A DNA stretch of 64,000 nt from Obelidium mucronatum (taxonomy: Eukaryota > Chytridiomycota > Chytridiomycetes > Chytridiales > Chytriomycetaceae), in NCBI GenBank assembly GCA_025765595.1, contig JAIVFH010000039.1, forward strand, positions 62,001-126,000, read 5' to 3'. Positions 17,816 through 64,000 of this stretch are shown here, in pieces; the first letter of the stretch is position 1, and each line of letters begins with the position of its first letter. A program made the position numbers and the translations under genes. Below the pieces are notes generated by a model. That model saw only the letters and a list, made by a program, of their open reading frames with translations, made no database searches and was not told the DNA's origin.

Positions 17816-20800
17816 ATGGGACTCGTGGAAAACAGTGTATTGCTGGCAGAACTATCGCCTGGAGAATCAAACGACTTTGATCCAGCCAGATCAGTATTAA
17901 TAGCGGAATCTGTGCTGATTCAATGGGTCGCCGAAGATATCATTGGAACATCAGTGTCAGAAGCAGACTTTAGCGATCCATTCCTCTTGATACAAGTTCT
18001 TGCAATACTGGCTCCAAATTCAGTCAACTTAAACTACTATTCTTCGGATCACGCCTTCAGCTGTGAGAATCTTAATATAGTTACTGTCGATATGCTGTTC
18101 AATGGACTGAAGTCATTGGGGTTTGAGAATCTCCCTGTTTCCAAAGATCAAATCCTGGAAGGGAACAAGAGCGCAATGTTGGAAATAATTCGAATATTAT
18201 ACGAATGGAAAGGTGTTAAAAATACGAACGGCGCTATTGGCAAAGCGCCATTGGCCTCAGCTCCTGAAGCGGCGTTCGCCGTCACTGAATATCCCGAATT
18301 CAATACCATTCCATCGAAAGCAGCTCTGGCCAAGATTGAAAGAATCGATAGCATGGTTTCTGCCATAGAATCAGTCTATGAACCGTCAGAGCCATCATTT
18401 ATTCCATGTTTGCGATGGTTTTTTCGCCTCGTCAATGATGAATCCGATGGTGATCAATTTGGCGCGTCGTACAATTGCGCTCAAGAAGTGCAAGAAATGA
18501 CTCGTGTTTTAGAATCAGTGGTGAGTAGTCATACCCCACCCTTTTTGTTCCAAACCTTCATTTATAACACGATAAATGGCAGTCAAAAGCAATACCTGAA
18601 GGGAACATCCTCTCTTCTCTAACTTATGGAGCCATGTATACTATGGCATGCAAAATTCTATTTGAGGATTCCAAATTAAACAAGTGGATCGAAACCTTTC
18701 TTCCACCTTCCGACAAAGAGAAGCAAGTGGACTGGATCAACCAAAAAGACGGATTCTTGGATCTTCTCATCAGCCATGGTTTACTAGACTTTCAAGAAAG
18801 TTTGAAAGCATGTATTGGTGATATGATCCGAGATGATTGTCCATTTTATGAGGTTCGCTTCTTGTATTCTTCAATTTTTTTCGAAAGACCTTACACACTT
18901 TGTCACAGTCGATACATTCCAACATTATTGAAGCCCTAATGCAACACTCTGTGTCGGATATAAATGTGGAAGATATTGTGAATCATATGAAGTAAAGTGA
19001 ATACATTTAATTTTGAGAAACACTAACATCACCACCCAAATCAGCAATAAAATTCCGAACACTCAAATTAAAGACTACCCCTACGACATCGAGGAAGCAT
19101 TGCTTCTTTGGTTCAGAAAGTGCGTTGATCATGCCATCAAATTAACTCGTGACCCAAAGATAATTCAATGGAAACGCCAAACCATGGAAACCAGCGAGCT
19201 CACATCATTTCTTCACGACGGAGTTGCCCCGTGTTTAGTTGCATTTTCATACATCAACGGATTCAAGATCAACGATGTTTCTTTTGAGGGAGACATTGGC
19301 TCTAATTGGAAACTCTTGGAAACACGCGGAGCTGCGGATGGAATCCCAATCGCTTGTTGGAAACCGGATGAAATTATTAGGCATGGTTGTTTGACTTCAT
19401 TTGAAGTACCGTTCTTGGTTTTTGCTTGTGATTTGTTCGAGTGGATTGAGCTGTTGAGTTTTTTTTTTTTTTTTCTTTTTTTAAAAAAATTTTTCATTTT
19501 TTTTTTTTGGCCTCCTCCTCATTGATGTTTTATTATTTTAGATCCAACAAACTTCCTATTGATGAAATCGTTCAAAATGTAGTCGAAGCAAAAGGAAACA
19601 CTGAAAGCGCGAGGCCTGGATCTCACGTACCTTGGCTTGACCAACAAGAAACATACAAAGGAGCAGCCCTTCTTGAAGACTCACCTAGTGAAACAACAAA
19701 AGCTCTCCCTAGAGAATATACCGCTAATCCAGAGGTCCAAGGAAAGTGGCTGCCAATTGATGATCACCTTTTTGGAGTGCAAAAGGTGCATCAACCGCCG
19801 CCGCCGCCGTCCGAACAAATTCCTTCCGAATCTCCACCACCATTATCATCCATTTCTTCACTTTCAAATCTTGATCTTTCTCTTTCAATGGATGAATCGA
19901 AACCTCTTGAGACTGAGACAGTATCAGTCCCTCCCCAGTCAGATACACCCGCCGCAAGAGCTTCAACATCTGAAAGTGCAGCCCTGAAGGATCAAAATGA
20001 AGTTATTTTTCAAAGCTTCATGAAGCAATTTGACGACGCTGTAGATTCACATTCAGTAGACTTTGTGGAGCAACAATCCCTTGTGCGGATGGAATCTGTA
20101 GAATCTACAATCTCATCACAAGATATGTATAGTACTATGGAGCCCGTCGCTTTGGCGCCCAACCATTCAGGAAGCCATAAAGAAACTAAACCAGCCGTAG
20201 CAGCGTCGAGGGACAGCCATTCACCTGTTACAACTTCAAAACCAGTGGACCTAGAAGCTTTCCGCCAACCATCAGTCTCGAATTTGGGTGAACCAAAACC
20301 ACCACAACCTCAAATGGCTCCTCAAGCGGCAAAGCCAAAGCCACCAGCAAACCCGCCTTCCACCACCAAAGCCGCGAGTCCCAAAAAAACAAACTCTGTA
20401 AAAAAGGAGTCTCCATCCACAAATGGAAAACCAAAGACCATTCCATTAACGGACCAAACGAGAACAACAACAGCACCAACGAACGATCAAATCGCAGTCG
20501 CCGCCGAAACACCACGATTGAAAAGTTCCACAACAACAACTACAACGACAACAGTCACAACAAACTCGCAATCAATCACATCCACCTCTTCCTTGAATGT
20601 GACTTCCCCTGCAAAAGACCGAAAACGGAAGCTTCGGAATCTGGGTGGAGGTTGCGAATCACATCCAGAAACAACGGCAACCACAGCTACACCACCGACA
20701 CCATTGAAAAGTGCGGAAACCATCGGAACTACTACCACCACAACCACCACGAGTTTTGAAACCCCCGTTGTCGTGCTGCCTAAAATTCTATCCCCGCCAC

Positions 20801-40164: not shown

Positions 40165-40296
40165 AAAAAAACCACCGGCATACGAAGGATGAATGTTTCT
40201 AGAACACATCTCGTTTGAGACTTTGGTGTGAGATAAATAAATCATAATTGAAGTGAAAGGGGAACGGTTTTTGCTATTCATGTTCTATTATTTTTT

Positions 40297-40703
40297 TTAC
40301 GATCGCAACGTTTCTTTCAACAAAACGATCTCCGCCAAATTTCGGGCATGCCGCGCTTCCACGGCCTCAACCAAGGGAACACAAAGTTTATCGAGCACCG
40401 ACGTCATATTTCGCAGATACACTCCGCTGTAGTGGGACGTTTCTAACGACTGCATCCCCTTCAATTTGTCTTGCTCCTCTTTCTTGGAGCTGTTGCTGCT
40501 GCCTCCAGATATCGCCTTGTTGAAGAACTCGTTTTCCTCTTGCAAGAATATAGCCGGGATTCGATAGAGTTGCTGCAGAGATTCGGGCGTGATTCCTTTG
40601 TCGCTTCGGCCAATGAATACTGGCACTTCCTGCCGCCTACCATGCCAAAAAAAAAAGAAAGTGATTTGTTCAGACTTCAGAGAGCACTCAGGAAATCATG
40701 GAT

Positions 40704-40736
<33 letters not shown>

Positions 40737-41451
40737 TACTCAATACTCACACCAAGTCCCCACCGTCAGCAACGCTTCGGAACGCAATCAGCTGGCACTT
40801 TTGAACACCATTGAAATCGTTAAACACGCTCAGAATCAGACCAATGAATGATTCGCTGAGCATTTGCTGGTCCCGTTGGCATCGCAAGTCCACGTGTGAA
40901 GGAAGAACCGTAATGTGGGGGTGCGAATGCGCTGGAAAGTCGTTACTATCGTGAGAAAAGAGGCTTCTCGCGCAGCAAACCGCAATCGTCACGATCCACC
41001 ACAATTCCAACAAGAATAATATTCACGCAACTAAATAGCACCAACGCTACGCATTTCCCAAATTGCACATAAACTTACCCCATCCAATAACAGCCGTTTC
41101 TGTAGCTTCGGCATAGCTAATGGCCTCGCTCAATTGTTCGCTGGATATCTCCTGCAAGTGGCAACCAATTTAATCCCACAGCCACCACTCACGACCCCCA
41201 AGAATGCCAATTACCACACGATCCTTGCGCTTGTCTTTTCGTTGGCAGAATAGGCAGTGCGTGACTGTCACGACCTGCCCGTCGCCGGATGTAGTCCCCA
41301 TCAACATGGCAAGTGTCTCTTCCTTCTCTGCAAGACACGTGCGCTTAAGGATTCAGTCCATCAGCGCAGGCATTGCTTGCGATATACCTGTTGCGAGAGC
41401 ATACGTGCTTAGTGCCAGGTACACGTCAGCGGCCACCACAACTTGGCTCAT
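40297..41451 (-). CDS. BRCC3: BRCC36-like JAMM deubiquitinase
   Basis: Five exons (41451-41388, 41327-41215, 41151-41079, 40931-40751, 40636-40297) give 256 aa. BRCC36 is a zinc metalloprotease that cleaves Lys63-linked ubiquitin in the BRISC and BRCA1-A complexes. The JAMM motif is intact: an early Glu (ALATEKEE), then HSHPHITVLPSHVD with both His, Ser and Asp. KDKRKDRVEISSEQLSEA and the C-terminal helical part (IPAIFLQEENEFFNKA ... LRNMTSVLDKLCVPLVEAVE) also match this subfamily, not CSN5 or Rpn11. Intron 4 carries a 32-bp G/C run. The gene starts 60 bp from the stop of the Lon-like gene, same strand. Its usual partner Abraxas is not in the window. Confidence 0.88.
40704..40735. repeat. Poly-G tract in BRCC36 intron
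   Basis: 32 consecutive G on the plus strand within intron 40750-40637. Confidence 0.9.
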
Positions 41452-41511
41452 GTTTTTTCACGACTATTTTTATTGCCAACGATGGGGGCATAGATTCAAC
41501 ATAGATTGTCA

Positions 41512-44500
41512 TCATTCCTCGCGGGCATAAAGCGCCACAAGGCCATCAAAGGACGATACATAGACTGGCACAACTCCCTCCAACAATCCCTTGGGGATCG
41601 TTTCCCACACACCCTTTGAGCCCACAGCCAGAACAATCGCCTTGGCACCCCCTTCCACTGCTTTCAGAATTCTCTCCACAAGATCCCCTTTCACGCCAAC
41701 CATGCGCCCCGTCAGCTTTAGTGCCACCAACAGCGCCGTGCGTTCAGGCAGCTTGAGCCCAAGACAATCACTCACGTAGGCAAATGCCGTTGCTGCGAGC
41801 AAAACCCCATCTCTCGATGACAAGCTGCTGCTGACATCTACTAACACTTTCCCGCCGCCACCGCGTGCCTCAATGACATCTGGTCGCGTCTGCTTCATCC
41901 AGCTCTTGGCGAACCCAACTCCCATTTCTACTTCCATGCACTCAGGATGATTCGATACCACCGCTCCAAGAGGACCTTCGCTCTCCAGTACATCCACGCT
42001 CTCCAATCCGAACTCACTCACCCACACACAGCTCCCCCAGCCTCCTCCCACAACTCCATTTTCCCATACGCCTTCATCCACTTCCGTTTGCACGCTTTCG
42101 CCATTCAGCAAACCAATCACGTTTTCGGAATCAACCAAAAGTGTGTCAACATCGTGGACCAGCAGTCTAGCGCAGCACTCCTCCACAACTTTGACAACAC
42201 TCCGCTCCATTTCAACGTATCCAATCGCACCTCCGTGCGCACTCACCCTCTCCACAGCGCCTCGCGTCCAGAGTACACGGCCTACACATCCCAAATCTTC
42301 CAAAACCTTTGGCAACACAACAGCCCAAGCAACATGAACAACTTCTTCCAGAGTAGGCGCTGGCACCCGAATCGCATGTATTTTGGTGAGAGCGGTGAAG
42401 GAAGCAGGGAGCCAGGTTCCATCCGCAATAGTGAGAACAAACAACGTATTGTACAAATCAATGTTGATGTTGAGGCTCGGATCATGGAAGTTGTGGGTTG
42501 GAGACGAGAGAATTTGCAGGACCGTTTCCGCAATGGCAGCTTCAGGATCAATCTTATCGACTGCACAGCTTTTGTGAGAAAAGAAGGTACCAATCATGTC
42601 ACTTACAGTTGTCAAAGAGCACCATAGTCCCCATTCGGTCTTCTCCACATGCAGCAATCTTGGCAAACACACTGCTGCGCTTCTTGTCGCCGATTATTTC
42701 TTCTGGTTCCGCAATCACACTCAAATCAATTCGGTATGGCTCCAAATCCAGAGCATCAGCAAGGATTCTTGTTACAGTGGTTCGACCGCTGCCTTGGGGT
42801 CCCCTCAAGAGAATTACCTTGCCATTGGCACTGAATTGAATGGGGTTGTTTGACACATACTCGAGAGTACGGGCACCGTGGGCTATATACCAAAGAAAGA
42901 AGAAGTCAGTTTAGGCACACAAAAAATTTCCCATCAACATACGGGATGGGCTAGAAAGTAGAATAGATCGTCTGTTGCTATGGCTCAACGAACTGAAGAA
43001 ACAAGACGCAACAAATGACGACAACTGTTCTTTGACGGTCTGGGATCCATAGAACAACTCGTTCCAACGAGTGCTGAACTCGTTGAATTTGGAACGGTAG
43101 TTTGACTGCGGAAATTCCATCTGAGCATCATCCGAAAACTAGCGAAAACCCTGTTACACCAAAGCCCAGACAGCTTTCAGAGACTTACTTCGTCGCGGAC
43201 TTCATTGCCTTCCATTTGATATTCAAGATCCTCTGCGTCAATCGCCTGCGTAGTCACAATCTCCTCTGTGTCGTACATGTCGACCAAGTCGTCGGCAACG
43301 GGAGCAAATGCTTCTCCATCGCTTGCATCACGCGTAACGATGGTAACGGACTTGTCGCCCGTTGCCCGCACAGGCTGCTGCGGAGAAAGAGCGACATAGA
43401 TGTCCCGACCTTCAAGCTCAGTATGACTGAAGCCAACGGCCTTCTCGGCTGCCTCAACACTGAAAAAGTCAATGTACCCGAATCCCTTTGGCGCGCCATC
43501 TTGCCCTGTGATGATGCGAACGGACTGAATCTCTCCACAGCTGGAAAAGTAATCCGCAACACTTTCGGCAGTGGCAGACGATCCGAGATTTCCGATAAAA
43601 ACTGAGCAAATTCTCAGCGCCAGACACACAACGAAATTTCTCAATTCGCCACTTACCAGTCTTCGCCAATGGTTGAATCGAAATCGCAGGCAACGATACT
43701 GGAAACAATAGTCAAAACACACAATAAAATATTTTTAACAAGCGGATCATTACCTGGGCCTTCTCGTGGGGCATCGACAACAACAAACTCGTCTACAGCA
43801 TTTTCTGCTGCTTCACTGTCGACGTTCAATTCACGCTCTTCAACAACAATGAATTCCTCCACAATATCGTCGATAGCCGCTGCATCTGTCGCTTGCTCTT
43901 CCTCACTTGACTTGATCACTCCATCGGAAAGCCGGGCGTCTTTCTTGCCCCCAGCCGCAGCAACTTGGCTTGGAGAGAATTCAAACACAGTTTCTTCTAC
44001 AACCACAACAGTGGTTATTTCGACGACTCCTTCTTCCTGCTGGTATGCCGACAAAGGTCCAATAGATCGTGGCTCAACGCCAGTCTCTTCCACGACTGCT
44101 TCATTCATATCCAAAAGTGTATGCGTCTCTATGACGGTTGTCTCTTCGCATACAATTTCGGATACCGTCGCATCAACCGGCACTGGAAGCTCGCCAACCG
44201 AAACAGCCACAGTTTTCACTGTAACTTCTTCAATCACAGTGTGTTTTGCAGTATTATTCAGTTCCTCAGTAAGAATTTCGGTCGGCTCGGGTGCCTTTCT
44301 CGTCAGACCATCCTTCCCCCCTTCTTCATCAGAATACAAGAGCTCTTTCGCGGTCAACGAATAGGCTTCGTCAATGACAAGTTCCGCCGGACTGGTTTTT
44401 GGTTCAACAACAGCGATCTCAGCCTCCTCAACATTTGTTACATCGATAGTTTCGACGGTCTCTTCCACAATACTTGTGACGCCATCGAAAGATTCGGTTG

Positions 44501-46655
44501 CACAAACGGTCGTTGTGACTGTAGTTTCCTCAATGATCACAGTGGTGACTCCAGCACCTACCTGCAGAGGCAGTTCAGAAACAATTTCTGTTCCACAGAA
44601 AACAGTTTCTTCGACGACTTCCGAAAAAGGAGTTGAATTGCGTGCTTTGCCGACAATCACCTCTTCTACTATCGTTTCCACGGTTTCCAATGTTGTTCCG
44701 TCATGCATGCCTACCACTTCGACCACTACCACTTCTTCTTCCTGGATTTCTCGAACATTCGTTTCAACAAAACTGACAGGCACCGCATGAAGAACTTCGA
44801 CCGTCTCCACCGTCGTAATAGTTTCAACCAACGCCTCCTTCTGCCCATTCCGTAAAATTAATGGAGTATCTTCAACAACTTCGACGATTTCTACTTCCTC
44901 CACAATCACCTCCCGAGTGGACGCATCGACCGCGATAGGAAGGTTTGTCACAATTTCGGATGTTGTCACTTCCTCCACAATCACCTCCCGAGTAGACGCA
45001 TCGACCGCGATAGGAAGGTTTGTCACAATTTCGGATGTTGTCACTTCCTCCACAATCACCTCCCGAGTAGACGCATCGACCGCGATAGGAAGGTTTGTCA
45101 CAATTTCGGATGTTGTGACTTCCTCCACAATCACCTCCCGAGTGGAAGTGCCAACTGCAACTGGAAGCTTTACTCCGGTATTTTCCTCTGCTATTGCCTC
45201 GCGAGCGGCAACAGCATCGAGGCTAATCGAGCCTCCATCTGAAGTAACAGCAGACACTTGAATTTCGCGACTGGCCAAAATCGAATCTTTGGCTGTTGCT
45301 GTATGAATGTCAACTGTTTCAACCACTTCAACGATTTCCTCAATAACTTCTCCTTCAACGCATCCAGTAACGACGCTGGAGGTCTCAATGATGGAAATTT
45401 CTTCGATAACAATTTCCACTGCACCTGCTGTTGCAGCCGCTAGGATATCTGCCGGTAGCTCCGAAACCAAGAGTGTAACAGTTTTCTCCACAGTAACAAT
45501 TTCTTCAGTCGTAGTAGTGGCATCAAATGGTCCATCATAACTTTCAGGCAGATCTTCAATAATTTCTTCAATTGATGTTGTTGTAACACTGCTCAGGACT
45601 GAAGATTTTTCAATATTAGTCCAACTGCGGCCAAGAATCTAAAACCTAATACCTTTGGGCTCTTTTGGCGCGTTCTGTAAGTTTCTAGCATGGTGGGTAT
45701 TATTTCTCGCAAGTGCTTTATCAACAGCAATTCGGCACGACACATCTTCAAAGGCAAACGTAAAGGTCAGAAGACTATCAAAAGCCAAACATTAATTATC
45801 GCTTAAACAATATTGATAGAATAACAAAGAGACTGACGTTCTGTTATTTTCAATAGCGGCGGCGATAGCTTGCTCCACCGACAAGCTAGCGAATGGCAAG
45901 CATCCAAGCCGTAGCGATGTCAACGTAGTATTTAACGAAATTACTTGAGCAAAAGACTCCAATACAGTGTTCGTGAGATTGTTTCCTTCTAGGTTAACAG
46001 CCACCAAGACAGCATCAGTCTCCAACAACTAAATTGGTACCGTTATTACAACATCCATCCACCGTGAATAAACAAGCTTATACCTTCGCAAGGGCAAGAG
46101 CGACAGCCTCCGTGATTTCCGTCCCAGACAAGTCCAACGTTTTGAGAAAGGTATTTCCAGCCAATGCTTCAACCAAGAGCAACCCTTGTTCGCGGACCAG
46201 TCTAGAATTGTCTTTCAAATTCAAACTGACAATTTCGGAACTATTGTTGACCAGCGCCACAATAATAGCGTCAACAGCAGCAGGTTGACCTTGCTTGGCA
46301 GACGCCACATTGCAAGCAGACTTCTCTGCCACCATCGCCATATCCTCAGGAACATCCAGCAATTCTATAGACTCAACAGTTACAACTTCTTCGACGGTAG
46401 TTGTGGTTTCATAGGGGCCGTTGTAGTCTGCAGGAAGGTCCTCATAGAAAACTTCGACAACGGTGGTGGTAGTAGTTTCAATAACTTCATCTGCTTCTGG
46501 AGCATTCTGCAATTCGTGAGCTGGCTCTGTTGGGTTAGGGACGTTCATTGAGCGCTGCTATTCTACAACCAACCAGGAACAAGGGTCTCTTCATTGGCCT
46601 CGGAAGCTGCTGGAACATTCCCCGATGACAGGGATGGAGTTTCTTGGTCGGACAT
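41512..46655 (-). CDS. LRR-repeat-RRM-Lon-like fusion protein, catalytic sites lost
   Basis: Ten exons (46655-46574, 46526-46084, 46028-45838, 45774-45653, 45598-43754, 43698-43657, 43601-43189, 43138-42943, 42882-42607, 42560-41512) total 4,659 nt, 1,552 aa, with consistent phases. Order: tropomodulin-like LRR (residues about 95-270; SLNLKDNSRL, KTLDLSGTEITEA, VNLEGNNLTN, TLTSLRLG), Val/Glu/Thr-rich region to about 900, RRM (VFIGNL and KGFGYIDF), then a Lon module: helical YGSQTVKEQLSSFVA, AAA+ with GPQGSGRT, FDNFDKIDPEAAIAETVLQ and LFVLTIADG, and a C-terminal Lon-protease fold (RDGVLLAATAF ... GGAKAIVLA). Walker A Lys is Arg, Walker B Glu is Asn, the protease Ser position is Leu and the Lys position Val. 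An RNA-binding, non-catalytic scaffold is inferred. Confidence 0.8.
44901..45150 (-). repeat. Tandem 75-bp coding repeats (25 aa)
   Basis: Three near-identical 75-bp units plus a partial fourth within exon 5 of the LRR-RRM-Lon gene. The peptide unit is STREVIVEEVTTSEIVTNLP plus IAVDA. Units differ by only a few bases, so the expansion is recent. The right arm carries the same array at about 62025-62274. Confidence 0.92.
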
Positions 46656-47239
46656 AGAGCAAAGGGGGTTCTTCTGAACTAAATATTGGTGTGGCAATTG
46701 CAACAGTAGATTCGTGGAAAAATTGCGTCTGGAGATGGAGTGATTAAATGGCGTAAATAATACACCGTTATTCTCTCAAAATCAGCGATACAATGGCGTC
46801 TTCCATCTAGTGAAATAAAGCAGATGAACCTTAGGGGAGGTGAGTTTCGAGAATGCATTCTAGCATGGTCTCTTGATCGTGAAAAGTATTGTTGGAACAA
46901 CCGGAGGCAAGGAACAATGGCTACTTGCTCTAAGGTGTGAAAAGGTCCATTCTTTCTCAATTCATTCACCGAGAAAATAGCGGATCAGGTAACGGACGGT
47001 TGCAATGTGATTGGCTAAAAAACTTCCGCCCAAAAAAGGTGGGATATCCCATAAAAAGACAAGAATAATGCCCTAACAAACCCTCGCGAACTCTGCACCA
47101 GACAGAGTCGCTGAATATAGCGTGGCTGGTTTGGTCAGATAACTCCGGGAAAACTCGGATAGCTCTTATCAGACGAATGACTCACATGTGCAGCTAAAAT
47201 TTCCGAATTTGTTCTTTTCACTTTTACAAAAAATCAAAC
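46656..47239. promoter_or_regulatory. Divergent promoter, LRR-RRM-Lon gene and cytochrome c
   Basis: 584 bp separate the two oppositely oriented start codons. A CCAAT box in reverse (GATTGGC, about 47010) lies roughly 230 bp before the cytochrome c ATG; CCAAT-binding Hap complexes control respiratory genes in fungi, so a role is plausible. No other gene is visible. Mirrored at 59935-60518. Confidence 0.5.
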
Positions 47240-48087
47240 ATGGCTGGTGAGTCGTCAATATTCTCTCATCGCTTGTTCGACGCGGCTATAGTAGCTGGAG
47301 CTTTTGTGGATAACAAGTTGCGTGTGATCTTGTGGAAAATGGCTGGGGCAGTTGACGACGGACAGCTATTACAAATAGTGTGCAGAATGGCCGGCATATC
47401 GAGGATACATCGCAGGAGCGATCTGACTGCAATCTCTCATGGGAGGTCGTTCGTATTGCTGTCCGCGAGCTTTGGGGGATTACTGCACGCTCTTTCACTT
47501 TTTCTTTTTTTTTTAGTCCGTTGACGTTTTTATTATCTCTGTTTGTAGGTGACGCTGTTAACGGTGCTAAACTCTTCAAGACTCGTTGTGCCCAATGCCA
47601 CGTTGTCGAAGCTGTAAGTAATCTCATCCTACTTGCTGGGACGGATGATCGTCTGGTGGATTGTTAAAATAGTGATCCAAAGTCAGATGCTGATAGGGTG
47701 GTGGATAGTTAGATTGGAGGCATCTGGTATGGATTGCTTTCGATGTTGATATTGGATGTTGATGCTAGCTAGTGTTGATGTGAAAGGGCCTGGGAACCAC
47801 GTGTTCTTTTTCGCTGGCCTTTCGCTAACTTTTATGAATAGGGTGCCCCACACAAAGTTGGACCAAACTTGAACGGTCTTTTTGGAAGAAAGTCCGGATC
47901 TGCCTCAGGTTACGCATACTCTGACGCTATGAAGGCCAAGCAGGTTACCTGGACCGATGACCAGATGTTTGTCTACCTTGAGAACCCAAAGAAGTTTGTT
48001 CCAGGCACTAAGATGGTCTTTGCTGGATTCAAGAAGGAGTCTGACAGAAATGACATCATTGCCTACTTGAAGAATGCCACCAAGTAA
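47240..48087 (+). CDS. CYC1: Cytochrome c, left-arm copy
   Basis: Three exons (47240-47246, 47549-47613, 47842-48087) encode 105 aa. The tiny first exon supplies MAG; intron 1 is 302 nt. Haem attachment CAQCH and the axial Met region PGTKMVFAG are intact, as are [13 protein letters not shown] and the C-terminal helix [12 protein letters not shown]. The protein shuttles electrons between complexes III and IV in the mitochondrial intermembrane space. The nuclear gene context (introns, CCAAT promoter) is normal. A second copy with an identical coding sequence lies at 59086-59934 in the other arm. Confidence 0.96.
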
Positions 48088-48410
48088 TTGGGATCTTCTG
48101 CAACGACAACCTATTTAAGGTCTTGTTTGTTCTTTGTTTCTGGCTTCTCTGAATTCAGAGTGATGTAGGAGAGGGAAGAGATTGGGAGAGCTAGACTGAA
48201 AATAAACTTCCAATTCATAACATCTGTGTTTTGATATTTAACTTTTGAAGTGGATGATGCAAACAAAACATATTCCAGAAGCCCGGTAGATATCTAGATC
48301 ATTGTCTAGACTTCCTTCTTTTTGTATCATCTCACTTTTTGTTTGGTGGCAAATTGCAATCCAAAAGGAACCCACATCATTGCAGCTGTCATGTTAAAAG
48401 ATCGTAACGC
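48088..48410. other. Cytochrome c 3' flank
   Basis: Contains an AATAAA at about 48201 that can serve as the polyadenylation signal of the cytochrome c gene. No gene seen before the retrotransposon fragment. Confidence 0.6.
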
Positions 48411-49159
48411 TTGGCCAAGACGTACCACCCAACCTTGGCGTCAGAAGCACGGGTCTCCAAACCTTCGCCCTGCCTGTTGCCCCTGAAGAATTCGAAACAA
48501 AGACCAAACCAGCTGTCAAATTCCCCAACGGTAAACAAAACCCACCAAGCATATGATACACAAACACTAAAATCCAACAAGCCCTCCCTACAGGACCTCT
48601 GCAAGAAGACAACTCTGGCCAGAGAACAATTCCCAAAAGCTGTGCAACCACACCTCGACACCAACGCTGCACTCTCCAAATCTGACCACCCAGACGACTT
48701 TATCACAATTGATCTAATCAACGGGGCCGAACCAACCTATATCAAGCAGTACCGCCTGCCATTCAAGAAACACGCAATTGCCACGGAGCAAGTATCATGC
48801 TGGCTAAAAGATGGAATAGCATCGTTAGCCCCTGGCACGAGCACAACAGTCCGCTCATCTGCCCACCACACATAGTGAATGGCAAACTAACTAAGTACCG
48901 AGTATGCATCAAAATACAAGCAGTGAAGAAAATCACAAAAGACTACAAACAAATCAACCAAGGCACCTGCGACGTCCCAGAAGAAGTCACGGATTCCAAC
49001 CTGTTCTCTACCATGGACCTCGACAGAGCCTACCACCAATACATCCTTGCCCCAGAACCTATACCAACTAGACAAAAACGGCTCCAGGAAATACATCCAG
49101 TTTGTGGCAAAGTTGTTTTCACTTCACCAAAGAAACTACTCCACCACACACAAAGATGA
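48411..49159 (+). pseudogene. Ty3/gypsy reverse transcriptase fragment, left copy
   Basis: Two overlapping frames (48411-48875 and 48797-49159) together read as the start of a Ty3/gypsy reverse transcriptase: EPTYIKQYRLPFKKHAIATE, SPLICPPHIVNGKLTKYRVC and NLFSTMDLDRAYHQYIL. The frame change between them and the abrupt end before the YxDD active site show that it is dead. It abuts, tail to tail, an integrase/chromodomain fragment on the opposite strand. Confidence 0.75.
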
Positions 49160-49812
49160 ATGGAATTTATTGGTGGCCATGTTTGCTGATCCAAGGTTTT
49201 TGGTTTGGCGTTCCAAGCTTCCATGGTTTGGTTGTTGTTCTTCCGTAAATTTGGGTTGGTCATGTTGGTGTTGATGGTATTTGTGGAATTTGCTGATGAT
49301 AGTGGTGTTTTGGAAGTGGGAGTGTGGTATCCACTTGTTGTATGAGTCATCAAAGTTTTTCCATGAGACTAGGTATTCTTTTTCCTGGGTAGGGCTTGTC
49401 CTGAAGGCGTGAATTTTGGAGACTTTGGCTGTGGGAAGGAATGTAGTGTGTGTGCTGAGATTAGTTTTAGTTGATGTGGTGCGTAGTTGCGGCTGAGGTG
49501 ATCCGTCGGCGTCCACCAGGCGGTAGGTGGCGTTCTTGATTACTCTGTATGGTCCTTTGTCATGCGGCTCAGTTTTGCTTTTGCAAACGGCTGGTTTGCC
49601 ATCATGTAGGAGTTCAGAGGGAATAGTTTGTCCGTGACGTTGAACTTCCTGTTGAATTCTCTTGCATGATGGATTGGTAGCAGCAGGTTGTGGCCGCAAT
49701 TTCCTGGTAGACAGGGTAGTGCATGTGGTTGCAGCTGAAGTTCTTCAAGTGGCAGGTTTCTTTGTTTGTCAAAGGAGTAGTCAGTGAATGTGTTCACGGT
49801 TCTGGCAAACAT
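49136..49812 (-). pseudogene. Integrase C-terminus and chromodomain, left copy
   Basis: Minus-strand frames 49812-49540 and 49699-49136 overlap and read as the end of a chromovirus (Ty3/gypsy) polyprotein: AREFNRKFNVTDKLFPL, then PHDKGPYRVIKNATYRLVD after a frame change, then a chromodomain-like EKEYLVSWKNFDDSYNKWIP. Chromodomains guide chromovirus integration to heterochromatin. The orientation is opposite to the adjacent reverse transcriptase piece, so the element was rearranged before the arm was duplicated. Confidence 0.7.
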
Positions 49813-49825
49813 TAGGCTGAAAGTG

Positions 49826-49887
49826 TGGTGCAGTTGGCAAGTCCAGGTTTTAAGAATCTGTAGGTGCCGGATTCAATCCCTGGTTAT

Positions 49888-49934
<47 letters not shown>
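49826..49934 (+). other. tRNA-Leu-like SINE head plus 43-bp T tract
   Basis: A-box-like TGGTGCAGTTGG (49826-49837), an anticodon arm CAGGT-TTTAAGA-ATCTG (49844-49860, anticodon TAA) and a B-box variant GGATTCAATCC (49869-49879) are correctly ordered. D and acceptor stems do not pair, so it is not a functional tRNA. A run of 43 T follows from 49892. Mirrored at 57239-57347. Confidence 0.6.
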
Positions 49935-49935
<1 letters not shown>

Positions 49936-50861
49936 GAAAAAAACACATTTTTAATCACTTGAAAAAACAGATAGATATTTGTCTGATTGCTGGGCCAGGA
50001 TAGTTATGATGCAGCATTGGGGGTGGGGGATTTTACTTTGAAACATTTTGTCAAGTAGTGCACTTACATGGCAATTTTTTTTTGTTTTTTGTGACAAAAT
50101 TCTGATCTAGCCTGCCACTCAACTGCCCAAACTTCTCTCTGGCACAGTATCATGGACATTATAGACATTTCTGGTAAAAAGAAGCATGGCATAAATGACA
50201 CTGCCTAACCAAAAGGTTAGGTAAAACACATATATCTGCAAGACTGTCTGAGGCTACTGGAGAGCAAAGTGCCCAGGATATTCTTGAGATTGCAATGAAA
50301 GATGAATAGGAATCTAGGGAGAAATCAAAGATATATTTTGGGATGGTCAAGATGGTGGGAAGTGCTTTTGGGATTCAAATGGGCGAAAACATGAAGTTGT
50401 TCAAAGTGCGCAAAAGGCAATGAATTTATAGCTGGGTTTAACTGAGAGAAGCAAAATGCCATCCATATTGAACACTGGAATTAGAGTGTTGGATTCATTG
50501 AGAAAGACTGTAAATGATGGAGTTTTATGGGAAGAATTTAACAAGTTGGAAAACAGTAAAAGGGAGAAGTGGGAAGGAGTTAGAGTTTTTAGTTGCAAGT
50601 GGCATAGTGGCATGGTATCACTTAGTATGTATTAGTTTGATGAAACTGTAAAGAGAATAGAAGGCTGGAATACAAACTTGCCTGTGATGAACTGGGATGC
50701 AGCAGTGGAAATTTGCAAAAAGAGAGCCTTTTCTGTACAATAGAATGAAATGGAACATGAGGAGCAAGTGGGGTTAAGGAATGAGAGTGTGCAAGGGAGT
50801 GAAAATGAGAGTGTGGAAGGGAGTGAAAATGAGGTAGAGTTTAAAAGTATAACCACCTGAA
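49935..50861 (+). other. Decayed coding sequence of an unknown element
   Basis: Between about 50400 and 50855 one plus-strand reading is protein-like (for example KMPSILNTGIRVLDSLRKTV) but interrupted by several stops, ending in an ESVEGSENEVEFKS stretch. It probably is the upstream part of the ORF at 50862. Nothing is supported in 49935-50400. Confidence 0.35.
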
Positions 50862-51599
50862 ATGAAGCTAATATTGTACTATTTGCAATATAAAGCACAC
50901 ATTCTTTCAATTGGAAGCAGCACCATTGAAATGTCTCAATCTTCTTTCCTCAAAAGAAAAGCACCTGGCTCCTTCCAGGCAAACAAGTATGCCAAAGTTA
51001 AGGAAGCCCAGAAACTACTTTCATTGTCTAGACTTTCCCTGGAACAGTTGCCAATGGAGAAACTCTTTGATCCTGCCACAAAACTCAACTTTGCCACAAT
51101 ATCTTCCTTTGTTGAGCAAGAAGTAAACCCTGCCAACCTGTTGGAAGACATTGATTACAAGCTCACACAAAAGGGAACTCTTGCCAATGGATTCAATCTT
51201 CTCAAGTGCAAGTCTTCTGCATTCACTTCCATTGTCCTCAATCAAGGGAAAATTGTCAATATGCTTGATGGCCAGTCCTTCTCCAAATTGCTATGCTTTC
51301 AACAACTACAGCAACCCACTGGGGAGGACTCTATGATCTTCTGAAGGAGTATGAACCTGTTCACGACTTTGTAAACAAACATAATACTCCATTGGCTGTT
51401 TGATATGGACTGAAACAATCCAGACAAGGGGATCCTGATGATTTCGACATCAACGGGGGCTCCACAATTGATGCTGAAATTGCAGCCCACCTTGGAAAGA
51501 TTAAACGTTCGAAGGCAGCACATGGTGCAAAACCTGCCAAGCAAAAAAACACAGCCTATAATGCTGCCGAATTTAACAGCCTGAGACCTGTGTTTCAGT
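50862..51599 (+). pseudogene. Unknown element ORF, left copy (5' deleted)
   Basis: The 160-aa frame contains MSQSSFLKRKAPGSFQANKY and helical, lysine-rich sequence; near 51300 the reading shifts frame and continues (YDLLKEYEPVHDFVNKHNTP, then one stop, then FDINGGSTIDAEIAAHLGKI) to about 51598. Relative to the right-arm copy, 309 bp encoding upstream residues are missing here. No known family recognised. Repeat context suggests a transposon gene. Confidence 0.45.
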
Positions 51600-52135
51600 A
51601 AGTTGACAATACTTGATACCAATCTAAAGACAATTAATCTTACTTTCCCAGCACACCAACCACCCAGAGAATTGTTCTTCCAAAGCCCCATGGAGGGCTT
51701 CAGAATCAGTCTAAACCTTAGGTTTCTTTGAGCAAGCCACCAATTATGTTCAACGTCAGCCAAGATTCTTTTTAACATCGATCCCTTCGCCATGCTCAAA
51801 AATTCCAAAATTTCAGTAACATTCAATTTATTGTTTAAGCAATTTCTGTGGTCAGCATATTTTACAGAGGTTTTAGCGCGGCGTGAGCGTAGCAAGCCGC
51901 CTCTTGTTATTAGCCTGGCTGATTTTTTTTCGAAAACCAGAATGCAGATTCGGCATATTTAGTTCCCAACCAGTCAATCGGCATCACTATAACCAAGCGG
52001 AACCTATTGAAGACAGTTAGAATGAGTAATTAGATCTGTTGAACACCAAAAATAAGGCCGCCCAGACGTAATTCTTGTTCAGATACGTCTGTTGCAAAAA
52101 AAAGCTTAGAATGGCCAGCGCCGTAAAAGAAAGCA
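51600..52135. other. Transposon-type debris, no supported gene
   Basis: AT-rich. A 198-codon minus-strand frame (51299-51895) overlaps the ORF above antisense and lacks any family signature; I treat it as incidental. Mirrored in the right arm. Confidence 0.4.
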
Positions 52136-52469
52136 TTACCTGGCCCACACAATGTTGTTTGAGTCACTCTCTTGAGCAGCAATTAGGCTGCAATTTCCAT
52201 GCTGCACTGCAGTTTTGAGGGTGCATTGGGCTTGAAAAGTTACCCTGTGTTCCTTGGACGGCGGCCGTATAAATATACGCGCTCTTCTTTCTGATTGTGC
52301 TCTTGCTGGGCTTTTGACGAGACGCACTGCGGTGTTCGGCCTTTGTCATTAATATTGAAGTTATTTTTTGGGATGCTAAAGGCACATGAAGAAACATGTC
52401 ATTAACGCCAACATAAATCCAAAAAAGGCAATGTAAACGGGCCGCAGACGCATCGTGTTGATTTGCCGG
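52136..52469 (-). pseudogene. Unknown ORF fragment at inner edge, left copy
   Basis: Reads LFWIYVGVNDMFLHVPLASQ and RSASRQKPSKSTIRKKSAYI before an 11-bp deletion shifts the frame relative to the intact right-arm version (54384-54728). Product unknown. Confidence 0.4.
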
Positions 52470-54383
52470 ATACTGAATGCCAGTGATCATAGGTGACATT
52501 GGAAATATTTGGGTAGTTAAAAATTCTAGCATTTCAAACACACAAACACACACATAGACATTGTGTATGGTTTAGCCATACCTTTTTTTTATTTTATGAA
52601 TGAAAAAATTAAACTAAATTATTCCAAATCAGAATCACCAGTGTCCTCAAAAAGGCACTTTGTCTTAGGGGTTGGAGGTGTTGTCAAAAGAGAAGCAGAG
52701 GGAACACCATCTGGTGGGTATCCAGAATCCTCCAAGCTAGCTTTACTTGTAGCTAAAACTGAGAAGGACATCACTTCCGCCTTCAATATTCTTGAACAAA
52801 ACATATTTCACCAGAATGTTCACCACCAAAACCTCCATCTCTACCTTCATGAGGCTCCAAATGACAACATCAAAATTCAGCAAGTGTTCCATTTTCTTTT
52901 CAAAGATGAAGGCAATGTTCTCATTTACTGTCCGACAAGAAGTGAGACAGAGTCGTTGGCTAAACGGCTCCAGAGCAAAGGCAAAATTGCGGATTTTGTC
53001 CACGCCGGTCTCTCATATGAGGAACAATCTACTTAAGTTCAAAAATTTCTTGGAGAACTTCTTGCTGGAGAACCGCGTTGAATACTCCTCTCCACAGTTG
53101 TTTCAAATATGGGTCTGGATAAAAAAGACCCGTCCGTTGTCTACCATAATGGACTTCCAAGGTCGATGGAAGAATACACATTGCAATTCAGTCTGTCGGC
53201 TTTTCTGGATTCCATCCGATTATTCAAAGACAGACTCTCTTGTGAACCAAAGTGTGACCAAAAACAAGATTGAGGATTTAGTTCACAGCGTTTGCCTTTC
53301 AAAAAATCAAAACCACGACGCCAGCCAAAGTTTTGATGAAGACGCAGACAACAAATATTTAGAAATGCAAGGAATTCCAAATTGTGTTCCAGCACAAGCC
53401 CAGTCTTTTGAAAGGGCTGGATCATCTGCCAACTTGGGCTCATTGGAGCGGAAGAATGCAACTCCCTCCTTCTACCAATATAAAATTGTTGGGGAGCCTT
53501 CTGTGGGTCGTCTTCAACATATTGTTTCCAATGCTTATCTGGCCGTCCAGTCAAACAAGTCCAGGTCTTTTTGGGCCTTTGTAGAGACAATTCAAAGCAA
53601 ATCTTGTATGTGGAGCTCTATTTCGGCATACTCCGGGTACATCAAAGGCTTCAATTGTTTCAATTGCCGCAAGTGTGTTCCTTGGGATCTGCGGCACGAG
53701 CCTTTTAACCTCTTCGATGATTCCGATTGGAAGAAATATCTTAATTTTATTGTAGATCCTGTTTATTATCCGGTTTTCTCCAGTTAAGACAGCTATAAAG
53801 TTGGAGTTCAGTACCTGTGTGGATGCCAGAAAGCAAAAGCGAAACTTGGTTACTACTTGCTAAGAAAGAAAAGAACCCTAAAATTGGAGAAGTCAAATGC
53901 CGCCAAGAACATGTTTAACGCGTTAAAACAATATGATTGGAAGGAAGTATGGGCAGATAGCCAGGCAAAGCGGGCAAGGGATAGAAATGGAAGCATTGTG
54001 TTTATTAGTTGTTGGTCTCAAGAAATTCAAGTTGTTTTATTCCACGGTCAATTTTTAGGTTTTGTTTTTTTAACTCTCCAAAATTCCACCGAGACTGTTG
54101 GACAATTGTGCCCTTAATTGAGCTTATCCGGCTAGTTGGTGTTTGGAGAGTAAAAAGAGCCTTCTGCTGTTTCCTGTCTGTCTAAGTTGGTCGCCCGTCG
54201 CAGTCGGATGTATATTTCCACACCAAACCACTGTCAACAACTCAACGTCACCCACAGCCCACGCTACGTCTATTAAGAAGCACCTTTGTTTGACTTTATC
54301 GGCACGTTTTTTTGACATGTTTTTTCTTTCTTATAAGTTATCTAACATAATTTGTTATTTTGAGACAAAGTGCCGCCGACAGC
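52470..54383. other. Spacer of the inverted repeat
   Basis: 1,914 bp unique sequence between the two arms, mostly occupied by the RecQ-like helicase relic at 52618-54118. The rest (54119-54383) shows no gene. Confidence 0.85.
52618..54118 (+). pseudogene. RecQ-like helicase C-terminal half, decayed
   Basis: Frame 1 (52563-53036) ends with helicase motif IV sequence NVLIYCPTRSETESLAKRLQ and VHAGLSYEEQST; after in-frame TAA (53034) and TGA (53079) the same frame continues VQKFLGELLAGEP, then ILLSTVVSNMGLDKKDPSVV and YHNGLPRSMEEYTLQ, matching RecQ motifs V-VI. A frame change near 53250 leads to a zinc-binding-like CMWSSISAYSGY...CFNCRKC and NLFDDSDWKKYLNFI (to 53787), then a last block to 54118. 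Motifs I-III are absent. Both stops could arise from single C-to-T changes (CAA, CGA). Telomere-linked RecQ genes occur near fungal chromosome ends, so a subtelomeric origin is possible. Confidence 0.65.
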
Positions 54384-60518: not shown

Positions 60519-63500
60519 ATGTCCGACCAAGAAACTCCATCCCTGTCATCGGGGAATGTTCCAGCAGCTTCCGAGGCCAATGAAGAGACCCTTGTTCCTG
60601 GTTGGTTGTAGAATAGCAGCGCTCAATGAACGTCCCTAACCCAACAGAGCCAGCTCACGAATTGCAGAATGCTCCAGAAGCAGATGAAGTTATTGAAACT
60701 ACTACCACCACCGTTGTCGAAGTTTTCTATGAGGACCTTCCTGCAGACTACAACGGCCCCTATGAAACCACAACTACCGTCGAAGAAGTTGTAACTGTTG
60801 AGTCTATAGAATTGCTGGATGTTCCTGAGGATATGGCGATGGTGGCAGAGAAGTCTGCTTGCAATGTGGCGTCTGCCAAGCAAGGTCAACCTGCTGCTGT
60901 TGACGCTATTATTGTGGCGCTGGTCAACAATAGTTCCGAAATTGTCAGTTTGAATTTGAAAGACAATTCTAGACTGGTCCGCGAACAAGGGTTGCTCTTG
61001 GTTGAAGCATTGGCTGGAAATACCTTTCTCAAAACGTTGGACTTGTCTGGGACGGAAATCACGGAGGCTGTCGCTCTTGCCCTTGCGAAGGTATAAGCTT
61101 GTTTATTCACGGTGGATGGATGTTGTAATAACGGTACCAATTTAGTTGTTGGAGACTGATGCTGTCTTGGTGGCTGTTAACCTAGAAGGAAACAATCTCA
61201 CGAACACTGTATTGGAGTCTTTTGCTCAAGTAATTTCGTTAAATACTACGTTGACATCGCTACGGCTTGGATGCTTGCCATTCGCTAGCTTGTCGGTGGA
61301 GCAAGCTATCGCCGCCGCTATTGAAAATAACAGAACGTCAGTCTCTTTGTTATTCTATCAATATTGTTTAAGCGATAATTAATGTTTGGCTTTTGATAGT
61401 CTTCTGACCTTTACGTTTGCCTTTGAAGATGTGTCGTGCCGAATTGCTGTTGATAAAGCACTTGCGAGAAATAATACCCACCATGCTAGAAACTTACAGA
61501 ACGCGCCAAAAGAGCCCAAAGGTATGAGGTTTTAGATTCTTGGCCGCAGTTGGACTAATATTGAAAAATCTTCAGTCCTGAGCAGTGTTACAACAACATC
61601 AATTGAAGAAATTATTGAAGATCTGCCTGAAAGTTATGATGGACCATTTGATGCCACTACTACGACTGAAGAAATTGTTACTGTGGAGAAAACTGTTACA
61701 CTCTTGGTTTCGGAGCTACCGGCAGATATCCTAGCGGCTGCAACAGCAGGTGCAGTGGAAATTGTTATCGAAGAAATTTCCATCATTGAGACCTCCAGCG
61801 TCGTTACTGGATGCGTTGAAGGAGAAGTTATTGAGGAAATCGTTGAAGTGGTTGAAACAGTTGACATTCATACAGCAACAGCCAAAGATTCGATTTTGGC
61901 CAGTCGCGAAATTCAAGTGTCTGCTGTTACTTCAGATGGAGGCTCGATTAGCCTCGATGCTGTTGCCGCTCGCGAGGCAATAGCAGAGGAAAATACCGGA
62001 GTAAAGCTTCCAGTTGCAGTTGGCACTTCCACTCGGGAGGTGATTGTGGAGGAAGTCACAACATCCGAAATTGTGACAAACCTTCCTATCGCGGTCGATG
62101 CGTCTACTCGGGAGGTGATTGTGGAGGAAGTGACAACATCCGAAATTGTGACAAACCTTCCTATCGCGGTCGATGCGTCTACTCGGGAGGTGATTGTGGA
62201 GGAAGTGACAACATCCGAAATTGTGACAAACCTTCCTATCGCGGTCGATGCGTCCACTCGGGAGGTGATTGTGGAGGAAGTAGAAATCGTCGAAGTTGTT
62301 GAAGATACTCCATTAATTTTACGGAATGGGCAGAAGGAGGCGTTGGTTGAAACTATTACGACGGTGGAGACGGTCGAAGTTCTTCATGCGGTGCCTGCCA
62401 GTTTTGTTGAAACGAATGTTCGAGAAATCCAGGAAGAAGAAGTGGTAGTGGTCGAAGTGGTAGGCATGCCATGACGGAACAACATTGGAAACCGTGGAAA
62501 CGATAGTAGAAGAGGTGATTGTCGGCAAAGCACGCAATTCAACTCCTTTTTCGGAAGTCGTCGAAGAAACTGTTTTCTGTGGAACAGAAATTGTTTCTGA
62601 ACTGCCTCTGCAGGTAGGTGCTGGAGTCACCACTGTGATCATTGAGGAAACTACAGTCACAACGACCGTTTGTGCAACCGAATCTTTCGATGGCGTCACA
62701 AGTATTGTGGAAGAGACCGTCGAAACTATCGATGTAACAAATGTTGAGGAGGCTGAGATCGCTGTTGTTGAACCAAAAACCAGTCCGGCGGAACTTGTCA
62801 TTGACGAAGCCTATTCGTTGACCGCGAAAGAGCTCTTGTATTCTGATGAAGAAGGGGGGAAGGATGGTCTGACGAGAAAGGCACCCGAGCCGACCGAAAT
62901 TCTTACTGAGGAACTGAATAATACTGCAAAACACACTGTGATTGAAGAAGTTACAGTGAAAACTGTGGCTGTTTCGGTTGGCGAGCTTCCAGTGCCGGTT
63001 GATGCGACGGTATCCGAAATTGTATGCGAAGAGACAACCGTCATAGAGACGCATACACTTTTGGATATGAATGAAGCAGTCGTGGAAGAGACTGGCGTTG
63101 AGCCACGATCTATTGGACCTTTGTCGGCATACCAGCAGGAAGAAGGAGTCGTCGAAATAACCACTGTTGTGGTTGTAGAAGAAACTGTGTTTGAATTCTC
63201 TCCAAGCCAAGTTGCTGCGGCTGGGGGCAAGAAAGACGCCCGGCTTTCCGATGGAGTGATCAAGTCAAGTGAGGAAGAGCAAGCGACAGATGCAGCGGCT
63301 ATCGACGATATTGTGGAGGAATTCATTGTTGTTGAAGAGCGTGAATTGAACGTCGACAGTGAAGCAGCAGAAAATGCTGTAGACGAGTTTGTTGTTGTCG
63401 ATGCCCCACGAGAAGGCCCAGGTAATGATCCGCTTGTTAAAAATATTTTATTGTGTGTTTTGACTATTGTTTCCAGTATCGTTGCCTGCGATTTCGATTC

Positions 63501-64000
63501 AACCATTGGCGAAGACTGGTAAGTGGCGAATTGAGAAATTTCGTTGTGTGTCTGGCGCTGAGAATTTGCTCAGTTTTTATCGGAAATCTCGGATCGTCTG
63601 CCACTGCCGAAAGTGTTGCGGATTACTTTTCCAGCTGTGGAGAGATTCAGTCCGTTCGCATCATCACAGGGCAAGATGGCGCGCCAAAGGGATTCGGGTA
63701 CATTGACTTTTTCAGTGTTGAGGCAGCCGAGAAGGCCGTTGGCTTCAGTCATACTGAGCTTGAAGGTCGGGACATCTATGTCGCTCTTTCTCCGCAGCAG
63801 CCTGTGCGGGCAACGGGCGACAAGTCCGTTACCATCGTTACGCGTGATGCAAGCGATGGAGAAGCATTTGCTCCCGTTGCCGACGACTTGGTCGACATGT
63901 ACGACACAGAGGAGATTGTGACTACGCAGGCGATTGACGCAGAGGATCTTGAATATCAAATGGAAGGCAATGAAGTCCGCGACGAAGTAAGTCTCTGAAA
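60519..64000 (+). pseudogene. LRR-repeat-RRM gene, right copy, frameshifted, 3' cut
   Basis: Exons 60519-60600, 60648-61090, 61146-61336, 61400-61521, 61576-63421, 63477-63518 and 63574-63986 mirror the left gene. One extra C at 62469-62470 (GGCATGCCATG against GGCATGCATG) shifts the frame and gives TGA at 62472-62474, inside the Val/Glu-rich region; translation would stop near residue 580, before the RRM. Downstream sequence is otherwise open in the original frame. One Val-to-Ala change lies just before. The window ends in the intron after the RRM exon, so whether a Lon-like part follows is unknown. A sequencing error cannot be excluded. Confidence 0.85.

Follow-up and report, generated by a model that had tools for sequence, protein, structure and literature searches.

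A gene on the minus strand of contig JAIVFH010000039.1 of the chytrid Obelidium mucronatum, within the 64,000-nucleotide (nt) stretch analysed here (the window, to which positions refer unless another contig is named), encodes a 1552-amino-acid (aa) protein whose C-terminal part is almost certainly a catalytically dead Lon carried in one real gene (Table 1). Removal of nine GT-AG introns (46-63 nt each) leaves 4659 nt including the stop codon, which reproduces the in-phase exon chain from ATG to stop proposed in the initial annotation, and domain matches bear out the order given there: a leucine-rich repeat (LRR) domain, Val/Glu/Thr-rich repeats, an RNA recognition motif (RRM) and a Lon-type module, preceded by a short acidic N-terminus that includes a Thr/Val/Glu module. 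The N-terminal 279 residues contain 42 Asp/Glu versus 15 Lys/Arg and do not look, on inspection, like a mitochondrial presequence.

The Lon-type module and its replaced sites

Residues 1116-1537 are collinear with Lon from AAA+ through the protease domain, in agreement with the earlier reading of the tail. The four top rows of a phmmer search of the module against the PDB are mitochondrial Lon chains (E=1.6e-13 to 2e-13), the first (1.6e-13) aligned in two stretches and the second (1.9e-13) in one collinear stretch of module residues 70-491. A two-sequence profile matches Lon at 4.9e-15, the NCBIfam model lon matches the 506-aa module at 56.5 bits (E=1.8e-15, short of the family cut-off of 608 bits), hhalign of the module with 32 true Lons gives 8.6e-16 across 417 columns, and hmmsearch with the profile of these 32 gives E=3.1e-17. 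The local hmmsearch database held 631 sequences (decoys, window open reading frames (ORFs) and test proteins), in which the matches at E<=10 are three entries that contain the Lon parts in question, plus two window ORFs that belong to the same gene; none of the 202 decoys (2 reversed, 200 shuffled) matched the true-Lon profile at that threshold. The best structural match of a template-free AlphaFold model of the module, a prediction that the initial annotation had suggested making, is also Lon. No match to PF02190, the N-terminal substrate-binding domain of Lon, is listed at E<=10 for the full-length protein. By eye, LFYGSQTVKEQLSSFVAS (at about residues 1074-1091, in exon 8, ~43055-43000) resembles the Lon helix before the P-loop (HYGLKDVKDRILEFIAV); the alignments put the next segment, RTLEYVSNN, at this helix instead, and there may be an insertion or duplication before the P-loop.

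The same domain order, for which a search in other chytrid genomes had been advised, is present in the 1837-aa protein HDU68_005081, which has two LRR units and comes from Siphonaria sp. JEL0065, a member of the Chytriomycetaceae. The two proteins are 79% identical in the Lon part, 71.7% over residues 843-1551 (RRM and RRM-Lon linker included) and 55.7% over residues 54-265 (LRR included). Conservation along the Lon module is fairly even (74.5-82.9% when it is divided into six segments, and 60-92% in windows of 25 residues), with the P-loop stretch (residues 1122-1146, 92%) among the best and the final five residues at 40%, and a decaying pseudogene was rejected on this ground. The Siphonaria protein crosses the RRM-Lon junction with a conserved linker, by which two separate genes were rejected, and its sequence continues across the sites of introns 7 and 8 (43188-43139 and 42942-42883), the two that had been singled out for checking; compared by eye, the junctions of introns 5 to 9 are all consistent with it. 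Among 7998 candidates scored in a search of 5.8 billion proteins, at least one relative, the Siphonaria protein, was found; another protein search (8000 candidates scored) gave at least four matches, namely the exon of the window itself and three true Lons from bacteria or metagenomes, and a third (1259 candidates scored) gave one match, again the Siphonaria protein. Candidates were chosen in these searches by shared five-residue words, which distant relatives could escape.

Eight alignment columns, named here for what we take from general knowledge of Lon to be their functions, each hold a single residue in all 32 true Lons, and all eight are replaced both in the window gene and in the Siphonaria protein. 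In the order Walker A Lys, Walker B Glu, pore-loop Tyr, sensor-1 Asn, Arg finger, sensor-2 Arg, catalytic Ser and catalytic Lys, the residues are R, N, S, A, K, V, L, R in the window gene and R, N, S, T, K, L, L, R in its Siphonaria counterpart, with the identical replacement at six of the eight sites. The alignment has 35 rows: the 32 true Lons, the Siphonaria protein, and the window gene, which takes up two rows (its exon 9, and the ORF of exon 10, the first residues of which are intron-derived and were disregarded); a six-row alignment gives the same replacements. The Walker B Asp is retained, as is the GxxGxG-T frame of the P-loop in both species, and all eight sites are intact in the mitochondrial-type Lon of O. 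mucronatum itself (C219, 1064 aa when spliced). The replacement of catalytic residues claimed in the initial annotation stands at every site, except that the Arg finger, given there as absent, is replaced by Lys; further replacements affect the sensor-2 Arg and the pore-loop Tyr. Since the ATPase, pore and dyad residues are lost, the module could not be a protease by the known mechanism.

Several results weigh against this reading of the module and the gene, or qualify it. PF05362 (Lon_C) is unlisted for the protein at E<=10 and the gene is absent from the 11 Lon_C matches in its own genome, so that of the C-terminal profile search that had been proposed, the whole module matches Lon strongly but Lon_C by itself stays under threshold. 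The protease part taken alone has no match at E<=10 by hmmsearch and a weak one by hhalign (2.5e-4 across 104 columns, where a single shuffled control gives 0.64 and a single reversed one 0.41). The AlphaFold model is of low confidence in part of the protease half, and true Lons were present in its alignment. The Siphonaria protein is a gene prediction in a record flagged UNVERIFIED_CONTAM by NCBI, the host name of which may be wrong. The AAA+ part is certain, and the protease part leans mainly on collinearity together with a faint signal of its own. The ortholog and the eight replaced sites nevertheless back the original proposal of one gene with a catalytically dead Lon module.

Table 1. Features of the pseudo-Lon locus in the 64,000-nt window
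Feature	Position	Strand	Remarks
Whole gene	46655 to 41512	-	10 exons, 1552 aa; ATG at 46655, stop ends 41512
Exons	46655-46574, 46526-46084, 46028-45838, 45774-45653, 45598-43754, 43698-43657, 43601-43189, 43138-42943, 42882-42607, 42560-41512	-	
Tropomodulin/leiomodin-type LRR domain	45696..46287	-	~residues 108-265; interrupted by introns 2 and 3
Val/Glu/Thr-rich repeat region	43767..45653	-	~residues 280-890; V 17.8%, E 17.3%, T 12.4%
75-bp tandem unit inside repeat region	44893-45143	-	
RRM	43399..43657	-	residues 909-976; RRM_1 E=1.2e-16; intron 6 within first codon
Pseudo-Lon module	41515..43138	-	residues 1047-1552 (506 aa); AAA+ plus Lon protease-like domain
Degenerate Walker A GPQGSGRT	42779..42802	-	Lys to Arg
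Degenerate Walker B LFDNFDK	42553..42619	-	Glu to Asn; split by intron 9 (42606-42561)
Sensor-1 region LTIADG	42418..42435	-	Asn to Ala
Former catalytic Ser segment SRDGVLLA	41794..41817	-	Ser to Leu
Former catalytic Lys segment GDLVER	41671..41688	-	Lys to Arg
Candidate polyadenylation signal AATAAA	41469..41474	-	~40 nt past stop; sole same-strand AATAAA within 41200-46655
Inverted repeat, left arm (holds the gene)	40170-52469	.	right arm 54384 to past window end (C39 ~129,006)
Second, inverted gene copy	60519..64000	+	extends beyond window to ~C39:127,660

The LRR domain, repeats and RRM

A three-row profile of the LRR domain matches the ABS2 of leiomodin-1 (4z79, E=2.6e-20) and tropomodulin (1io0, E=5.7e-19), each in a single stretch across the entire domain, C-terminal tail included, and the suggestion of cytoskeletal partners in the initial annotation gains support from this likeness. 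MOP84A outscores them as a whole protein (2e-25, several repeats summed), its best single stretch reaching 1.1e-10; LRRC34 matches at 2e-18 (whole protein), and further LRR proteins of the same repeat type match too. The Pfam LRR models are below cut-off on this protein. A difference from tropomodulin and leiomodin is that PF03250, the tropomodulin N-terminal domain, is unlisted in the Pfam scan of the 1552-aa protein, and any actin binding would be by analogy; PF03250 also gave no match in the O. mucronatum genome, but the positive controls gave none either. The LRR profile has 32 matches at E<=1e-3 in the genome, several of which are exons of one gene or copy pairs. At C4:50001-65000, a tropomodulin-type LRR leads into a very long frame of Ala/Thr/Val/Glu repeats that stays open over at least 1677 aa; an EDLPxxYxGP module is common to this gene and the pseudo-Lon gene, and C195 also matches in both the LRR and the EDLPxxYxGP searches.

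In the RRM, both RNP motifs are intact with their aromatic residues (RNP2 VFIGNL at residue 909, RNP1 KGFGYIDF at residue 947), and the closest RRM elsewhere in the genome (49%) belongs to genes at C64 that we take to be nucleolin-like from their acidic stretches, RRMs and RGG tails. The protein resembles nucleolin and Gar2 in its intact RNP motifs, in this paralog and in a common intron position; it differs in having a single RRM, no RGG tail and other partner domains.

Intron positions, likely parent genes and genomic setting

Intron positions relate the modules to three families of genes in this genome, one of them the mitochondrial-type Lon, with the GT-AG splice sites of the comparison genes placed by eye. 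In the LRR, the phase-0 intron 2 and the phase-2 intron 3 are at the same positions as in the C4 gene of LRR and Thr/Val/Glu repeats. The position of intron 6 (phase 1, KT/VFIGNL) is common to two of the three nucleolin-like genes at C64, one of which reads KT/VFVGNL, and the third has no intron at that position in the stretch shown. Intron 9 (phase 1, DN/FDK) has the codon and phase of intron 3 of the mitochondrial-type Lon (DE/IDK), a coincidence to which we assign a chance of about 0.003 to 0.02 (our own estimate, from four Lon introns, all of phase 1, and about 445 aligned codons). Introns 2, 3, 6 and 9 are the four that were matched, in codon as well as in phase. From its sequence, the gene looks as if it was assembled from three known parents in its own genome.

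In a 20-row tree, the pseudo-Lon pair joins the mitochondrial-type Lon of O. mucronatum at 93/89, below the 95/80 mark of the tool, on a very long stem with short tips (0.21 and 0.10); the rooting is for drawing only, and both pseudo-Lons deviate in composition from the other rows. Raw bit scores do not single out the mitochondrial Lon (third, 53.4 bits), to which the pseudo-Lon is 22% identical and the closest solved structure of which is yeast Pim1. Mitochondrial-type Lon copies are found on C219, on C558 (with a frame break relative to C219) and, as a third, on C258. A Lon at C78, which we take to be of the peroxisomal type, was rejected as the parent, its nearest intron being two codons upstream and its place being on the other side of the 93/89 split. 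Horizontal transfer from bacteria or viruses was rejected on account of the intron common to the mitochondrial-type Lon; in a scan of viral_contigs with two short peptides only, none of the 64 pattern matches was confirmed as a relative.

The gene sits inside an inverted repeat, the arms of which (~12.3-12.6 kb) are 99.25-99.75% identical around a spacer of ~1.9 kb, and which may reflect either a palindromic duplication of recent date or a fold-back in the assembly; 20001-20800, outside the repeat, and 53000-54000, in the spacer, are single-copy in the assembly. The second copy of the gene is 99.9% identical, with four differences across 5.4 kb: one is intronic, two are single-base coding changes, and one is a C inserted in the repeat region, which causes a frameshift with a stop at codon 579. 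A divergent neighbour (~47240-48090, plus strand), with a frame that by eye is like nuclear cytochrome c, has its upstream region in common with the pseudo-Lon gene. The downstream neighbour (from ~41451 downwards, minus strand) begins with MSQVVVAADVYLALSTYALAT about 60 nt after the pseudo-Lon stop and looks like a BRCC36-type JAMM gene.

Possible functions and alternatives

Conservation of the Lon module between two genomes suggests that it does something other than proteolysis, and the gene looks like that of a preserved new protein and not like a decaying gene. Dead enzyme copies often turn into scaffolds, and neither RadA nor ComM is known to have protease activity. The Lon-like domain of RadA and ComM is required for oligomerisation (PMC11612176), BrxL is without an obvious Lon active-site motif (PMC10164562), and all three are active as ATPases (PMC11612176, PMC10164562). 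An oligomerising or docking scaffold is favoured on the strength of these precedents, and there is an even chance that the protein is a functional, non-enzymatic mosaic of chytrids with such a Lon scaffold, which would link RNA to actin; that the Lon module itself is a self-assembling scaffold has equal odds for and against. The hexamer and the gathering of RNA proposed in the initial annotation would likewise be inferences. The likeness to the bacterial proteins is in a Lon-like domain that serves assembly (RadA, ComM) or is without an obvious active-site motif (BrxL), but they retain their ATPase, whereas here the ATPase sites are replaced and the parent would be a eukaryotic LonA. The module resembles LonA (LONP1/Pim1) itself in its collinear AAA+ and protease-like parts and in the position of intron 9, and differs in having no N-domain match, in the replacement of all eight sites and in being fused behind an LRR, repeats and an RRM.

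As its acidic N-terminus and the absence of a presequence-like appearance suggest, the scaffold protein would work in the cytosol or nucleus. Its Lon module would have lost protein unfolding and cutting while keeping the fold, and would serve as an oligomerisation or docking platform that multiplies the RRM and the LRR, with the Val/Glu/Thr repeats as a spacer; the multiplied domains might then cluster RNA and tether it to actin. This tether is less likely than not, a reasoned guess from the identity of the domains. The fullest version, in which a mitochondrial Lon became a pseudo-protease ring of the cytosol or nucleus, on which RNA-binding and tropomodulin-like actin-binding domains are arrayed as a dedicated chytrid RNA-actin tether, exon-shuffled from three extant genes, is rather unlikely in all its parts together.

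The module may instead be a monomeric, nucleotide-sensing or peptide-binding pseudo-Lon that controls the RRM or the LRR, with a P-loop that binds without hydrolysis or an old groove that binds peptides, and the P-loop stretch, among the best conserved of the module and with its GxxGxG-T frame kept in both species, speaks for such a role. This alternative is rather unlikely: the Glu of Walker B is replaced, as are both sensor residues and the Arg finger, and a Walker A Lys changed to Arg usually weakens nucleotide binding. Apparent descent from a mitochondrial-type Lon would fit a dominant-negative subunit that regulates the true Lon through mixed rings, a very improbable role for a protein with an acidic N-terminus, no listed PF02190 and 22% identity to the mitochondrial-type Lon of its own genome. 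Least probable is an artefact, in which two neighbouring genes, or an RRM gene and a pseudogene, were joined by the prediction: the gene is known from DNA alone, one of its two assembly copies carries a frameshift, and the ortholog is itself predicted in a flagged record, but the recurrence of this fusion in another genome, where the linker over the junction is conserved and the Lon part fairly evenly so, and the placing of the sole same-strand AATAAA after the end of Lon speak for a single gene.

Non-exhaustive searches of proteins and of the open-licence literature revealed no other LonA with both ATPase and protease replaced, and no other Lon fused to RNA-binding and actin-binding-type domains. 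The open-licence literature yielded nothing on Lon with an RRM in chytrids, tropomodulin in chytrids, Lon pseudoenzymes or Siphonaria sp. JEL0065, and the available part of PMC12050087 does not mention tropomodulin. If the module of the favoured scaffold still forms rings, it would be a natural test of what the Lon fold does when neither ATP nor proteolysis is involved. Because its likely parents all survive in one genome, marked by shared introns, the birth of the protein is traceable, and the tropomodulin-type LRR family of this chytrid bears on the origin of the pointed-end cappers of animals.

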